Assembly (NCBI GenBank): GCA_031284345.1 | Contig: JAITAC010000080.1 | Coordinates: 1 to 13,971, forward strand | Reading direction: 5' to 3' | DNA length: 13,971 nt | From: Holosporaceae bacterium | GTDB taxonomy: Bacteria > Pseudomonadota > Alphaproteobacteria > UBA3830 | Part shown: positions 9,080 to 13,656 of the stretch, one piece after another | How the letters are laid out: each line of letters begins with the position of its first letter | Numbering within the stretch: the stretch's first letter is position 1 | Position numbers and translations under genes: made by a program | Notes under the pieces: model-generated | The model's input: only the letters and a program-made list of their open reading frames with translations | Databases searched by the model: none | What the model was told of the DNA's origin: nothing

Positions 9080-9109
9080 TTGACAGAGGCTGATCGCAAA
9101 AAATATGAT
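9080..9109 (+). promoter_or_regulatory. Near-consensus sigma-70 promoter upstream of mvaA
   Basis: TTGACA (9080-9085), an 18-nt spacer and TATGAT (9104-9109) give the best promoter match seen in the window. Transcription would begin near 9116, leaving a leader of about 210 nt before the mvaA ATG. A 13-bp dyad AAATATgATATTT (9101-9113) overlaps the -10 and could be an operator, although such palindromes are common in AT-rich DNA. The galU gene diverges from the same intergenic region. Confidence 0.55.
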
Positions 9110-9327: not shown

Positions 9328-10368
9328 ATGAAATTTTCTACTAGCGCAATTGATACCATCATACCCACATGCATTATTGGTCCTTTGAAGCTGCTATACG
9401 ATAACAATCCAGAGCAGGTTTCTGTCCCCATGGCGACATTTGAAACTCCCCTTTGGCATTCGACAAAGCGAGGAGCGTTGGTGTCCCAGAAAACAAGTGG
9501 CATTCGGGTTGCGCCTCTGGATGATGCCATGACTAGATCCGTTATTCTGGAAGCCAATGATTTGGATGGAGCCGTGTCGGGCACCAACTGGATCAAAAGT
9601 CATCAGCAACAGATCAGTGACGTTGTGAGCAGTAGCAGTCGATTTGCTAAATTGAACGCTATTCATGTGGAAATCATCGGACGTATGATTTATCTGCGTT
9701 TATCCCTAACAACCGGAAACGCCTCAGGTCACAACATGGTCACCAAAGCAGCTGATTTCGCCATAAATTACATTATTTTCCACTGTAGCAGATTGAAATA
9801 CGTATCGATTTCTGGTAATATCTGCACAGATAAGAAGGTCTCGTCCATTAATGGCATTTTGGGAAGAGGGAAACGTGTTTCCGCAGAAATTTTTGTGCCC
9901 CGCGACGTCTGCGTCTCCGTTTTAAAAACCACACCGGAGCAAATCATGGAACTCAACGTAAAAAAAAATCTGGTGGGCAGCATATTATCCGGAGGAGTAC
10001 GCAGCGCAAACGCCCATTATGCCAACGTAGTGCTGGCAATTTATCTGGCCACCGGACAGGATTCCGCCAACATCGTAGAAGCATCTCAGGGCGTTACATT
10101 TGCGGAAGTCGACGCTGATGAAACATTGTATTTTTCGGTAAATCTTCCCAATATAATAGTCGGCACCGTCGGCAGTGGGAAAAAACTCGATTTTGCTCGG
10201 AAAAATCTTGAGCTCCTGGGCTGCTTTCCGGACGATCCGTTCTCCTCCCAAAGATTGGCAACACTGGTAGCGGCCGCGGTGCTGTGCTCTGAGCTCTCGC
10301 TGATGGCCTCTCTGACCAATTGCGGCGAATTGGTTAGAGTTCATGAAAAATTGGAGAGAAATTCATGA
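9328..10368 (+). CDS. mvaA: Hydroxymethylglutaryl-CoA reductase
   Basis: Reduces HMG-CoA to mevalonate, the committed step of the mevalonate isoprenoid pathway. The catalytic set is recognisable: Glu39 in PMATFETPLW, Lys169 in SGNICTDKKVSSIN followed by GRGKRV (the form seen in class I reductases), Asp245 in ATGQDSANIVEAS, and a C-terminal His339 in VRVHEKLERN, equivalent to the His of the family's C-terminal H-x-x-x-N/R motif. The nicotinamide-dinucleotide loop, usually TGDAMGxNM, reads TGNASGHNM (129-137), with Asp replaced by Asn131. At 346 residues it lacks most of the N-terminal region of longer homologues and has no membrane domain. A ribosome site GGAAG lies just upstream. The stop overlaps the mvaS start by ATGA. 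Its G+C appears somewhat higher than that of the flanking minus-strand genes. Confidence 0.93.
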   Translation: MKFSTSAIDTIIPTCIIGPLKLLYDNNPEQVSVPMATFETPLWHSTKRGALVSQKTSGIRVAPLDDAMTRSVILEANDLDGAVSGTNWIKSHQQQISDVVSSSSRFAKLNAIHVEIIGRMIYLRLSLTTGNASGHNMVTKAADFAINYIIFHCSRLKYVSISGNICTDKKVSSINGILGRGKRVSAEIFVPRDVCVSVLKTTPEQIMELNVKKNLVGSILSGGVRSANAHYANVVLAIYLATGQDSANIVEASQGVTFAEVDADETLYFSVNLPNIIVGTVGSGKKLDFARKNLELLGCFPDDPFSSQRLATLVAAAVLCSELSLMASLTNCGELVRVHEKLERNS

Positions 10369-11489
10369 AAATCGGCATTGATTCAATTGCTTTCTCCACC
10401 TCCAGATATTTTCTTAGACTCGAGATCCTTGCGGCCCATCGGGGTGTGAAATTCGAAAAATATTCCCAGGGCATAGGACAAATTATGATGCCCGTGTTTC
10501 CGCCCAATGAAGATATCGTGACCATAGCCATTGACGCCGCTCGAAAAGCCATTGCCCACATCGAAAATATCGCCGCCATAGATTTCTTGATTTTTGCAAC
10601 GGAGTCGTCCTTTGATTTATCCAAGGCCGCGGGCATATATGTGCATCATTTTTTGAAATTAAGAGAAGACTGCCGCGTAATAGAAATTAAGCAAGCTTGC
10701 TATTCAGCAACAGCAGCTCTACAGTTGGCAAAATCGTTCGTGCGCGAAAATCATAATTCGAAGGTGCTGGTGATTGGATCAGATATCGTAAAATATTCAT
10801 CCGGCAGCTCCGGAGAACCAACCCAAGGCGGAGCAGCCGTCGCATTCCTGGTATCTACGGATCCACAAATTATGATCATCGAAGACGGATCCGGAGTGCA
10901 TACCAATGACGTCATGGACTTCTGGAGACCCGCTTCCGAAAATGAAGCGCTGTTCGATGGAAAATTATCAGCATATAATTATTTAAAATCCCTGGATATA
11001 TCCTTCAATAGGTATCTGGCCAAAACCAACCGAGACATCTCGAGCATTGACTACGTCTGCTTCCATGCGCCGTTTGGAAAAATGGCTCATAAAGGTGCTC
11101 AGCAAATCAAATGGCGCGAATCCATAGACGATACTCTGCTGTATAACTCCGTCCTGGGCAATAGTTGTTCTGCGTCGCTCTATATCTGCCTGATGTCGCT
11201 CTTGGATCATGCGAAAACATCGCTGGAAGGCAAACGCATCGGACTTTATAGCTACGGCTCCGGCAGCGTCGCCGAATACTTCAGCGGCATAATTAACGGA
11301 AAATATAAATCCCGCATCACTGCGGAAAAAAATCAGCGCATGCTGGAGTCCCGAGAAGAAATCTCCTTCGAAGAATATGAACTGTTTTGTAAAAATTCGT
11401 CCGATTCCACAAATAAAATATACGAAAATTCCGGAACAGTCAGGCTGAAATCCATAGAAAATAAAAAAAGAATATACCTAGAAAATTAA
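10365..11489 (+). CDS. mvaS: Hydroxymethylglutaryl-CoA synthase
   Basis: Condenses acetyl-CoA with acetoacetyl-CoA to give HMG-CoA, the substrate of the preceding gene product. The thiolase-fold catalytic triad is in place: Glu80 in FATESSFD, Cys112 in IKQACYSATAAL and His234 in FHAPFGKMAHKG. These match Glu79, Cys111 and His233 of the Staphylococcus enzyme offset by one. PTQGGAAVAFLV (152-163) and YSYGSGSVAEYFS (295-307) are further family signatures. At 374 residues it is close to bacterial homologues (about 385-390), with a Lys/Asn/Glu-rich tail. GGAGAG lies 6 nt before the ATG, inside the end of mvaA. Pairing with an HMG-CoA reductase argues for mevalonate synthesis over a polyketide beta-branching role, for which an acyl carrier protein and enoyl-CoA hydratases would be expected nearby. 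No terminator is evident after it. Confidence 0.95.
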   Translation: MKIGIDSIAFSTSRYFLRLEILAAHRGVKFEKYSQGIGQIMMPVFPPNEDIVTIAIDAARKAIAHIENIAAIDFLIFATESSFDLSKAAGIYVHHFLKLREDCRVIEIKQACYSATAALQLAKSFVRENHNSKVLVIGSDIVKYSSGSSGEPTQGGAAVAFLVSTDPQIMIIEDGSGVHTNDVMDFWRPASENEALFDGKLSAYNYLKSLDISFNRYLAKTNRDISSIDYVCFHAPFGKMAHKGAQQIKWRESIDDTLLYNSVLGNSCSASLYICLMSLLDHAKTSLEGKRIGLYSYGSGSVAEYFSGIINGKYKSRITAEKNQRMLESREEISFEEYELFCKNSSDSTNKIYENSGTVRLKSIENKKRIYLEN

Positions 11490-11603: not shown

Positions 11604-11761
11604 ACGGTCTCTAGTAGATATATTTGCGGTCGTAGCTCAGCTGGATAGAGCACGAGATTCCTAATCTCGTGGTCGTGGGTTCGAATCCCACCGATCGCAC
11701 CATTCCGAAATCCAGCGGAAAAATCCTTCCAAACCCACGTCTCCCCGTCTGTAGAGACCGT
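11604..11761. repeat. Inverted repeat flanking the tRNA-Arg gene
   Basis: ACGGTCTCTA (11604-11613) and its exact complement TAGAGACCGT (11752-11761) bracket the tRNA, 12 nt before and 49 nt after it. If both are in one transcript they could form a long-range stem around the precursor tRNA. Alternatively the pair is a remnant of an integration event or chance. Confidence 0.4.
11626..11702 (+). tRNA. tRNA-Arg (anticodon CCU)
   Basis: A 77-nt cloverleaf with encoded CCA. The acceptor stem GCGGTCG pairs with CGATCGC (one G-U pair). The D stem is GCTC/GAGC. The anticodon stem CGAGA/TCTCG encloses the loop TTCCTAA with anticodon CCT. The T arm is GTGGG-TTCGAAT-CCCAC. It decodes AGG. It stands alone on the plus strand between mvaS and bioA. 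tRNA genes are frequent integration sites, and accessory-type genes lie on both sides. Confidence 0.97.
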
Positions 11762-11806: not shown

Positions 11807-13042
11807 CTATAAATATCTGTTGATTACTTCGTATGTCCTTAACAAATCATCGTTGCTCACGCAATAGGGAGGGAACAAATAGACGGTTCTTCCCAGTGGA
11901 CGCAGAAAAATTCCGTTTTCCCAGGCTTTGTCGATCATAAAATTAGCTTTTTCTTCGGATTCGACGTCAAATGCCGTTACTATGCCAATGCTCCTTCTTT
12001 TGAGGGCATTGAAAATAACATGACTTTTATGAAATTCCGTAATCTCCTTGATTTTGGCGATGGTTTCTTTTCTCCGCAGAATCTCCAGCGATTTGCAGGC
12101 GGCAGCGCAAGCAATTGGATTCGCCGTGTAGGAATGTCCGTGCAGAAATGTTTTTTTTCTGTCTTCGGATAAAAATGCGTCATAAATTTTTTCCGATGTA
12201 ACAGTCAAGGCCAACGGCAAAAAACCTCCCGTAAGTCCTTTGGAGAGACAGATAAAATCCGGCAGAACATTAGTATGATCCATGGCGAACATTTTCCCGG
12301 TGCGGTAAAATCCGGTCATGACTTCATCGAAAATTACAAGAATGCCATATTCTCTAACTTTGTTCACTAGCTTTTCCAGAAACTTTGATATGTAGAGTCT
12401 CATGCCAAATGATCCCTGCAGCAGAGGTTCTAATATAAGTACGCAAATTTTATTCCCAATTTCCTGCAGAATTTTTTCCAATCTACCAATTATTTCGTTT
12501 TCTTTTTCTTCCATTGATGCGGCGCCGTCGTAGTATTCCGGGACATCTATCATAATGGTTTTGAAAAATAACTCGGAAAAAGTCGCATGATACTTGGAAT
12601 TTACGCCGGCAGCGCTCATGGCTCCAAATGTATCTCCGTGGTAGCCTCCTTCCAGGGAGAGAAAAATACTTCTGTCAGTTTCTCCGATATTTTTAAAATA
12701 CTGATAGGCTATTTTTAGTGCAACTTCCACTGCTGTCGATCCATTATCCGAGAAAAAATAGCGATTTAGTTTTTGGGGAACGACCTGCTCCAGCTCGTTG
12801 ATCAATTTTTCTGCCGGATCGTGGGAAAATTTCGTAAAAATAACGTGCTCCAGTGTTTTGGCCTGACGACCTATGGCTTCTGCGATTTCTTGGTTAGCGT
12901 GTCCATGTACATTTACGAACCAGCTGGATATCATGTCCAGGTATTTTTCTCCGTTTTCGGCCAATAAATATGTTCCTTCTCCTTTAATTATTTTTGTCGG
13001 AGGGGGAGCGGTTTTTTCTTGGGTAAAAGGTCTCCAAATCAC
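11807..13042 (-). CDS. bioA: Adenosylmethionine-8-amino-7-oxononanoate aminotransferase
   Basis: A PLP enzyme that transaminates KAPA to DAPA in biotin synthesis, using S-adenosylmethionine as amino donor. Class III aminotransferase signatures are present: WRPFTQ at residues 3-8, SSWFVNVHGHA (39-49), DNGSTAVEVALK (99-110), GGYHGDTFGAMS (132-143), the cofactor-binding Asp239 in IFDEVMTGFYRTG, the Schiff-base Lys268 in CLSKGLTGGFLPLA, and HGHSYTANPIACAAA (301-315). It starts at a GTG overlapping the bioD stop (GTGA), with AGGA 8 nt upstream. At 411 residues it belongs to the slightly shorter form of the family. Being coupled to bioD removes most doubt over other class III aminotransferases. Confidence 0.95.
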   Translation of the reverse strand: MIWRPFTQEKTAPPPTKIIKGEGTYLLAENGEKYLDMISSWFVNVHGHANQEIAEAIGRQAKTLEHVIFTKFSHDPAEKLINELEQVVPQKLNRYFFSDNGSTAVEVALKIAYQYFKNIGETDRSIFLSLEGGYHGDTFGAMSAAGVNSKYHATFSELFFKTIMIDVPEYYDGAASMEEKENEIIGRLEKILQEIGNKICVLILEPLLQGSFGMRLYISKFLEKLVNKVREYGILVIFDEVMTGFYRTGKMFAMDHTNVLPDFICLSKGLTGGFLPLALTVTSEKIYDAFLSEDRKKTFLHGHSYTANPIACAAACKSLEILRRKETIAKIKEITEFHKSHVIFNALKRRSIGIVTAFDVESEEKANFMIDKAWENGIFLRPLGRTVYLFPPYCVSNDDLLRTYEVINRYL

Positions 13043-13656
13043 TTTAATATTCCTAAAATTTCAAGTGGCAACGTTGTATTTTGTAGAATTTCATTTAGAT
13101 CATGATTATGTGGAATAACCGAGAGTATTTTCAATTTAGAAAACTCTTCGATGGTATTCTTCACATTGTCCTTAATTTTGCCATTTATGATAATGCCGAG
13201 CATATCGATTCCGCGAATTTTCAAGACTTCCGTGGTCAGTAGCAGGTGATTAATCAAACCCAGCTTTGATTTCGCCACTATCAACACTTTGGCGCTGCAC
13301 ATTTTTATGAGATCCGCCATGAGAAAGTTTTTTGCTATGGGGACAAGAACTCCACCGGCGCCTTCGATAACGGTATTTTGCAGATTTCGGGCGAATAAAT
13401 TTGGTTTGATTTCAATATTTTCTAATTTTGCGGCGTCATAGGGAGATAATGGAGCGCTAAGTTTGTATGCTTCACATATAATTTTTGTATGCGGGGAGAA
13501 TTCTGCAACTGAGTTTTTGTCGGAATCGTTTCCTGTCTGAATTGGTTTCCAGTAATTGGCGTTTGTGTGTCTACAGATCCATGCGGAAACGACTGTTTTC
13601 CCAACATTTGTATCAGTTCCAGTAACAAAAATATTCATAGATTTTGCATTTGGCAT
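13039..13656 (-). CDS. bioD: Dethiobiotin synthetase
   Basis: An ATP-dependent enzyme that closes the ureido ring of DAPA with CO2 to give dethiobiotin, the step after BioA. The P-loop GTDTNVGKT lies at about residues 13-21. KPIQTG (37-42) is the substrate and Mg-binding segment, and VIEGAGGVLVPI (96-107) is the second family signature. The length is 205 residues, slightly below the usual 220-230. Two starts are possible: the ATG at 13656, or the one at 13638, which gives the typical MNIFVTGTDT beginning. Neither has a clear ribosome site, so I give the longer form. It overlaps bioA by 4 nt. The other biotin genes (bioB, bioF, bioC) are not in the window. Confidence 0.94.
   Translation of the reverse strand: MPNAKSMNIFVTGTDTNVGKTVVSAWICRHTNANYWKPIQTGNDSDKNSVAEFSPHTKIICEAYKLSAPLSPYDAAKLENIEIKPNLFARNLQNTVIEGAGGVLVPIAKNFLMADLIKMCSAKVLIVAKSKLGLINHLLLTTEVLKIRGIDMLGIIINGKIKDNVKNTIEEFSKLKILSVIPHNHDLNEILQNTTLPLEILGILK

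Follow-up and report, generated by a model that had tools for sequence, protein, structure and literature searches.

The adjacent genes for HMG-CoA reductase (HMGR) and HMG-CoA synthase (HMGS) carried on a 13,971-nucleotide stretch of alphaproteobacterial DNA, hereafter the window, very probably form the upper part of a full classical mevalonate pathway, one that has replaced the DXP pathway in a reduced-genome alphaproteobacterium. Replacement of DXP is judged here from two marker genes, Dxr and IspH. The window corresponds to contig C134 in a MAG that totals 1,048,226 bases over 137 contigs and is 88.3% complete. In the proposed scheme, HMGS would join acetyl-CoA to acetoacetyl-CoA (the genome has a thiolase gene), after which HMGR would reduce HMG-CoA to mevalonate; a scattered set comprising mevalonate kinase (MVK), a divergent GHMP kinase in the role of phosphomevalonate kinase (PMK), diphosphomevalonate decarboxylase (MvaD) and Idi-2 would convert mevalonate to IPP and DMAPP, which would feed the synthesis of prenyl carriers, undecaprenyl among them. 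Acquisition of this module would have taken place long ago, from a bacterial pool with HMGR-(Idi2)-HMGS-kinase-kinase-MvaD operons, mostly gammaproteobacterial among the best 61 loci. The operon would then have broken up during inheritance in the order, leaving only HMGR and HMGS coupled in the window's genome, and the module would have been lost whole in several branches. The enzyme activities, the translational coupling and the precise compound phosphorylated by the PMK-like kinase are predictions from sequence. The features of the window and the pathway genes found elsewhere in the genome are listed in Table 1.

Table 1. Features of the window, by position, and pathway genes located on other contigs of the same genome.
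Feature	Location	Strand	Evidence or remark
Best sigma-70-like promoter match (TTGACA-18-TATGAT), 5' of the pair	9080-9109	+	consensus matching
HMG-CoA reductase, short form (346 aa)	9328-10368	+	PF00368, 1.3e-83
GGAGAG, likely HMGS ribosome-binding site, within the HMGR 3' end	10353-10358	+	direct sequence reading; function predicted
ATGA overlap of HMGR and HMGS	10365-10368	+	direct sequence reading; translational coupling predicted
HMG-CoA synthase, bacterial type (374 aa)	10365-11489	+	TIGR01835, PDB 3v4n
tRNA-Arg	11626-11702		biotin genes lie downstream
Biotin genes, which we take to be bioD and bioA (bioD-bioA)	11810-13656	-	Pfam aminotransferase class III and AAA_26
Mevalonate kinase (MVK)	C42, cut by contig end		TIGR00549 best family; PF00288 above cut-off
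Diphosphomevalonate decarboxylase (MvaD)	C19		PF22700, 1.9e-29, above cut-off
PMK-like GHMP kinase	C132 (L231:596-1453)		divergent; best read as phosphomevalonate kinase
Idi-2	C89		TIGR02151, 375.9 bits, above cut-off of 281
Thiolase	C22		
UppS	C65		

Direct reading of the sequence bears out the two open reading frames and the ATGA overlap described in the original prediction, and the catalytic residues named there are correct. E39, K169, D245 and H339 of HMGR are invariant in 93/93 aligned rows (a set that contains the PDB rows but not G005's partial HMGR), as are E80, C112 and H234 of HMGS in 82/82 rows (leaving out fragments in G007, G043 and L198). HMGS scores 395.8 bits against the prokaryotic HMG-CoA synthase equivalog TIGR01835, above the cut-off of 360, and matches PDB 3v4n at 2.3e-76. 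HMGR has the sequence of a class I catalytic domain, an assignment drawn from a match to NCBIfam TIGR00533 that lies below its cut-off (310 bits, 2.2e-92; cut-off 442) and from alignment, starting at residue 12, with the class I enzymes PDB 6hr7 and human 1dq8. The match to TIGR00533 starts at profile position 72, leaving positions 1-71 without a counterpart. Since 19 aligned homologues begin at about the same position as the window's HMGR, its sequence is that of a short sub-family, consisting of the catalytic domain minus the N-terminal part of class I enzymes, rather than of a truncation through decay. Nor are the two genes decaying, because Nei-Gojobori comparison with the same-genus genome G002 gave dN far below dS for both HMGR (0.091 versus 0.687, a ratio of about 0.13) and HMGS (0.070 versus 0.716, about 0.10), indicating purifying selection. 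The base composition of the pair (GC 0.41-0.47, versus 0.37-0.47 across the window) is unremarkable, consistent with an old transfer. The case for a promoter belonging to the pair is one of consensus matching only: the best site agrees with the consensus at 11 of 12 positions, but it lies in a region with 10 promoter-like sites versus 6.0 +/- 2.5 in shuffles, so that an excess over shuffles is not clear. At HMGR residue 131 (window 9718-9720), the Asp position of the DAxGxN motif, which we take to be cofactor-binding, D is found in 61/61 outside rows and in both PDB rows, N in 21/22 rows of the window's family, and D, G or E in eight rows from the order's other families.

Inside the window it is true, as had been noted, that no pathway kinase or decarboxylase gene is recognized near the pair. 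The downstream enzymes are nevertheless not missing: MVK, the PMK-like kinase, MvaD and Idi-2 are encoded on other contigs of the same genome, so the apparent gap is one of location and not of absence. Thus, a genome-wide check for mvk, mvaD and idi, as originally proposed, finds all three, and that for pmk finds a GHMP kinase, although it matches no PMK model in NCBIfam. The MVK gene, cut by a contig end, scores 117 bits against TIGR00549, below the cut-off of 163, and 439 bits against a profile made for the order, which has this gene among its seeds. MvaD likewise falls below the TIGR01240 cut-off (134 bits against 171); its closest match among solved structures is PDB 3lto (278 bits, 7.8e-82), presumably the Legionella pneumophila protein. 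Dxr and IspH were not found in the window's genome. Absences in a single 88%-complete MAG are weak, and it is the order-wide count that carries them.

Elsewhere in the window, positions 202-498 hold a tandem array of 11.3 copies of a 26-base unit (84% matches), which in at least two frames translates into a short, recurring peptide. Biotin synthesis genes like those downstream of the tRNA gene are also described in other intracellular alphaproteobacteria, according to the accessible part of one report (PMC13134042).

The alphaproteobacterial setting suggested originally is upheld by the named near kin of the window, which are MAGs labeled 'Holosporaceae' or 'Alphaproteobacteria'. The order was sampled with 45 genomes, including the window's own, at completeness of 55-97%. 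HMGR is present in 29/45 of these, in 11/11 genera searched and in all four families searched. HMGS occurs in the same 29 genomes, in 27 of them above the cut-off and as fragments in G007 and G043. The PMK-like kinase was detected in 30/45 genomes (in G026 as a short fragment) and Idi-2 in 32/45 (in G026 below cut-off and partial); Idi-2 is unmatched in 5/29 HMGR-bearing genomes, a count that covers Idi-2 and not Idi-1. MvaD was detected in this survey through PF00288 only, a model weak for MvaD, so that its apparent absence from G001, G002, G026 and G034 is a soft result; in G002, PF00288 gave a match at E 0.008. Dxr and IspH were each found in 0/45 genomes of the order, in agreement with the suggested loss of DXP genes, and each was positive in another alphaproteobacterium (G053) and in 10/14 named controls. 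Outside the order, HMGS above the cut-off was found in 0/15 genomes of the class. HMGR is present in 29/34 genomes with at least one of MVK, the PMK-like kinase and MvaD versus 0/11 with none (Fisher p 4e-7), and all 29 genomes with the upper pair have one or more lower genes. This co-occurrence provides strong evidence that the HMGR-HMGS pair works with the scattered lower genes. Weak 'MVK' matches of 26-41 bits in G004, G017, G023, G026 and G028 were left out of the pathway count; for those in G004 and G017 the best NCBIfam match is the heptose kinase HddA, below its cut-off. Thiolase, which was expected to vanish with HMGS, is present in 39/45 genomes, including pathway-free ones. Some record titles name rumen, roe deer and red deer, and the JAI... 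accession series presumably derives from termite guts.

Trees support, in outline, the foreign origin originally proposed for the pair, namely an old horizontal acquisition followed by inheritance within the family. In the class sample, HMGR lies above the cut-off in 20/385 genomes, 16 of them outside the order. Nearly the whole profile is matched in 14 of these 16, from genomes of 4.0-6.5 Mb; HMGR of the small genomes G172 and G277 matches only from profile position 41, and HMGS lies within the fetched flank. Among the best 80 of at least 570 loci, the nearest named relatives outside the order are mostly gammaproteobacteria, along with Lentisphaerae and others. The best 61 outside loci on this capped list supplied the outside rows of the trees, and across these 61 loci HMGR identity is 49-56%, HMGS lies within the fetched flank in 54 and two GHMP kinases in 49, the typical gene order being HMGR-(Idi2)-HMGS-kinase-kinase-MvaD. 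With the outside sample being 61 loci from the best 80 of at least 570, a nearer donor may be unseen, and we infer the direction of transfer.

Trees of the two proteins, as the original prediction had called for, differ in how well they unite the order. In the careful HMGS tree, 28 rows of the order form a clade with G172, a 1.0-Mb alphaproteobacterium outside it (bootstrap 97, SH-aLRT 94), and the window's family is recovered at 100/99. The quick HMGS tree had placed the order alone on one side of a branch (94), G172 joining it in the careful tree; the order as one clade without G172 is neither supported nor rejected (AU p 0.355). The HMGR tree supports the window's family (95), but its best topology does not unite the order, although a single clade is not rejected (AU p 0.31). 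A first HMGR tree joined the order to two rows on long branches (94), a grouping that broke up on adding rows, and the case for a single acquisition therefore rests mainly on HMGS. The genes probably entered the order as a whole only once. Distances for HMGR and HMGS correlate, as co-inheritance predicts, with rho 0.68 across 19 genomes of the family and 0.89 across 26 of the order, values that 0/2000 permutations reach in either case. A vertically inherited alphaproteobacterial clade, the outcome named originally as contrary to transfer, thus describes the history of the family since acquisition but not its beginning, which was entry by an old transfer. HMGR of 'Ca. Trichorickettsia mobilis', a relative of 'Ca. 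Sarmatiella mevalonica', sits with other proteobacterial rows (97), away from the order, so that Rickettsiales and this order seemingly acquired the pathway separately. The short HMGR of L174 (DYTE01000003.1), titled 'Rickettsia conorii isolate SulCav...', pairs with that of Ca. Trichorickettsia (support 81); this MAG has probably been labeled with the wrong species.

Operon decay appears graded. Clusters of five or six genes occur outside the order; within it, G036 and G044 carry PMK-MvaD-MVK clusters separate from the pair, PMK adjoins MvaD in G015, and in the window's genome (G000) the lower genes all lie apart. HMGR and HMGS are adjacent on one strand in 28/29 genomes, G038 having them 127 kb apart; L165, a named relative outside the 45-genome set, has HMGR with no HMGS within 6 kb. 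The genes flanking the pair in the window recur in only 2/19 named relatives (L151 and L157 of L151-L169), several of which are short contigs. Taken with the adjacency in 28/29 genomes, this suggests that the pair is kept together while its surroundings change.

Other roles and histories for the pair were weighed against this reading. That kinase and decarboxylase genes are not recognized in the window would fit a bacterium without a complete pathway that produces mevalonate which a host then receives by export or exchange; exchange had been entertained in the original prediction. However, the presence of MVK, the PMK-like kinase, MvaD and Idi-2 in the same genome, and of one or more lower genes in every HMGR-bearing genome (0/29 have none), renders host exchange very improbable. 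An equally slight chance attaches to the synthase and reductase acting elsewhere, for instance in polyketide beta-branching or in the breakdown of HMG-CoA; although HMGS also matches PksG- and CurD-type HMG synthases, it exceeds the prokaryotic HMG-CoA synthase equivalog cut-off, PksG falls about 110 bits below the best HMG-CoA synthase chain, and the gene is coupled to HMGR and co-occurs with MVK, the PMK-like kinase and MvaD. Slighter still is the chance of a recent acquisition by the window's genome or its nearest kin only. The rarity of HMGR in the class (20/385 genomes above cut-off) would be expected of such an event, but its presence in all 11 genera of the order, the well-supported family clade in the HMGS tree, and the joint divergence of HMGR and HMGS speak against it.

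A further possibility concerns the five genomes with lower genes and no upper pair (G013, and also G001, G006, G010 and G016), which might import host mevalonate and so stand halfway between isoprenoid synthesis and IPP import. G013 (96% complete) has MVK, the PMK-like kinase, MvaD and Idi-2, with no HMGR match and no HMGS above the cut-off. Against this, the idea depends on G013 as a single case, and five lower-only genomes of 34 is close to the 4.63 predicted from assembly incompleteness alone; at completeness of at least 90% (21 genomes) there are two, versus 1.37 predicted. Mevalonate import is thus unproven, and we regard it as unlikely. Comparison around argS, which flanks HMGS in G018, did not help, since the argS stretches of its genus-mates G013, G021, G024, G027, G029 and G035 share only argS with the 18-kb stretch of G018, bar one 36-bit match in G024, too little to show an empty site.

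The favored reading, a complete pathway acquired long ago, includes its wholesale loss in some members of the order. HMGS, HMGR, MVK, the PMK-like kinase and MvaD are all absent from 11 genomes (G017, G019, G021, G022, G024, G027, G029, G031, G033, G035 and G041) whose completeness is 63-93% and reaches at least 90% in four. UppS is kept in 10 of the 11 (all except G033) and Idi-2 in three. These cells would have to obtain prenyl precursors elsewhere. The pathway-free genomes sit in genera g3, g4, g5 and g7, each of which also has members with HMGS, HMGR, MVK, the PMK-like kinase and MvaD, and loss therefore looks repeated; the g7 members with the full set have no Idi-2 match. G049, a small-genome alphaproteobacterium of another order (1.4 Mb, 99% complete), has no match to Dxr, IspH, Idi-2 or HMGR, so that by these genes it too shows no route to isoprenoid precursors.

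The PMK-like kinase itself merits attention. Neither Pfam nor the PMK models of NCBIfam gave a match to it, and none of three family members tested matched a Pfam model. A search with one member returned 954 homologues at E <= 1e-5, which include Bdellovibrio entries named 'hypothetical protein' and others named 'mevalonate kinase'; among 120 of these, four carry a fused Idi-1 domain. Members also adjoin MvaD and MVK in other families within the order. It seems reasonably likely that the kinase on C132 stands for a large unnamed PMK family that would fill the 'missing PMK' step in proteobacteria with mevalonate genes, making this orphan family a candidate for the missing enzyme.

The locus is a new and well-supported case of a known pathway replacement, and what makes it valuable is its distribution across the order, the wholesale losses that recur there, and the orphan kinase. 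Replacement of DXP by mevalonate is widened from isolated alphaproteobacterial cases to 29/45 genomes of an uncultured reduced-genome order of animal guts. Because its genera mix complete and pathway-free members, the order offers a natural series for studying when symbionts begin to import prenyl precursors. In the literature, as far as its text was available, we found no mention of mevalonate in this order, and the accessible text of a paper on Rs-D84, an order considered for the window (PMC12306168), has no word starting with isopren or mevalon. A 2017 survey that included nine Holosporales genomes states, in the part available, that non-Rickettsia Rickettsiales and Holosporales encode MEP/DOXP and are without idi (PMC5615194); the present order does not fit that statement, if these NCBI-labeled Holosporaceae count as Holosporales.

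Among known systems, 'Candidatus Sarmatiella mevalonica' (Rickettsiaceae), a symbiont of Paramecium, is likewise an alphaproteobacterium in which all the mevalonate genes are present, through horizontal transfer according to the available text of PMC11253213. It is a genus of Rickettsiales, whereas the trait described here extends over all four families searched of another order, for which association with protists is only suspected. Legionella and Coxiella, which use mevalonate in place of the non-mevalonate pathway according to the accessible part of PMC9803151, provide a parallel among intracellular proteobacteria but are gammaproteobacteria; HmgS is absent from most Legionella species, and PmvK from all, in the accessible portion of a survey of that genus (PMC13001223). 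Gammaproteobacterial operons (Neptuniibacter, Nitrincola and uncultured lineages) have the same short HMGR with HMGS close by, but in most of those loci the kinases and MvaD are still clustered, whereas in the window's genome only HMGR and HMGS remain together. Rickettsia has neither isoprenoid pathway and often keeps idi, as stated in the part of the 2017 survey available (PMC5615194), and in this it resembles the 11 genomes of the order without HMGS, HMGR, MVK, PMK-like kinase, MvaD, Dxr and IspH, of which 10 have UppS and three Idi-2. Unlike that of Rickettsia, however, the loss in this order falls inside genera whose other members retain the mevalonate genes.
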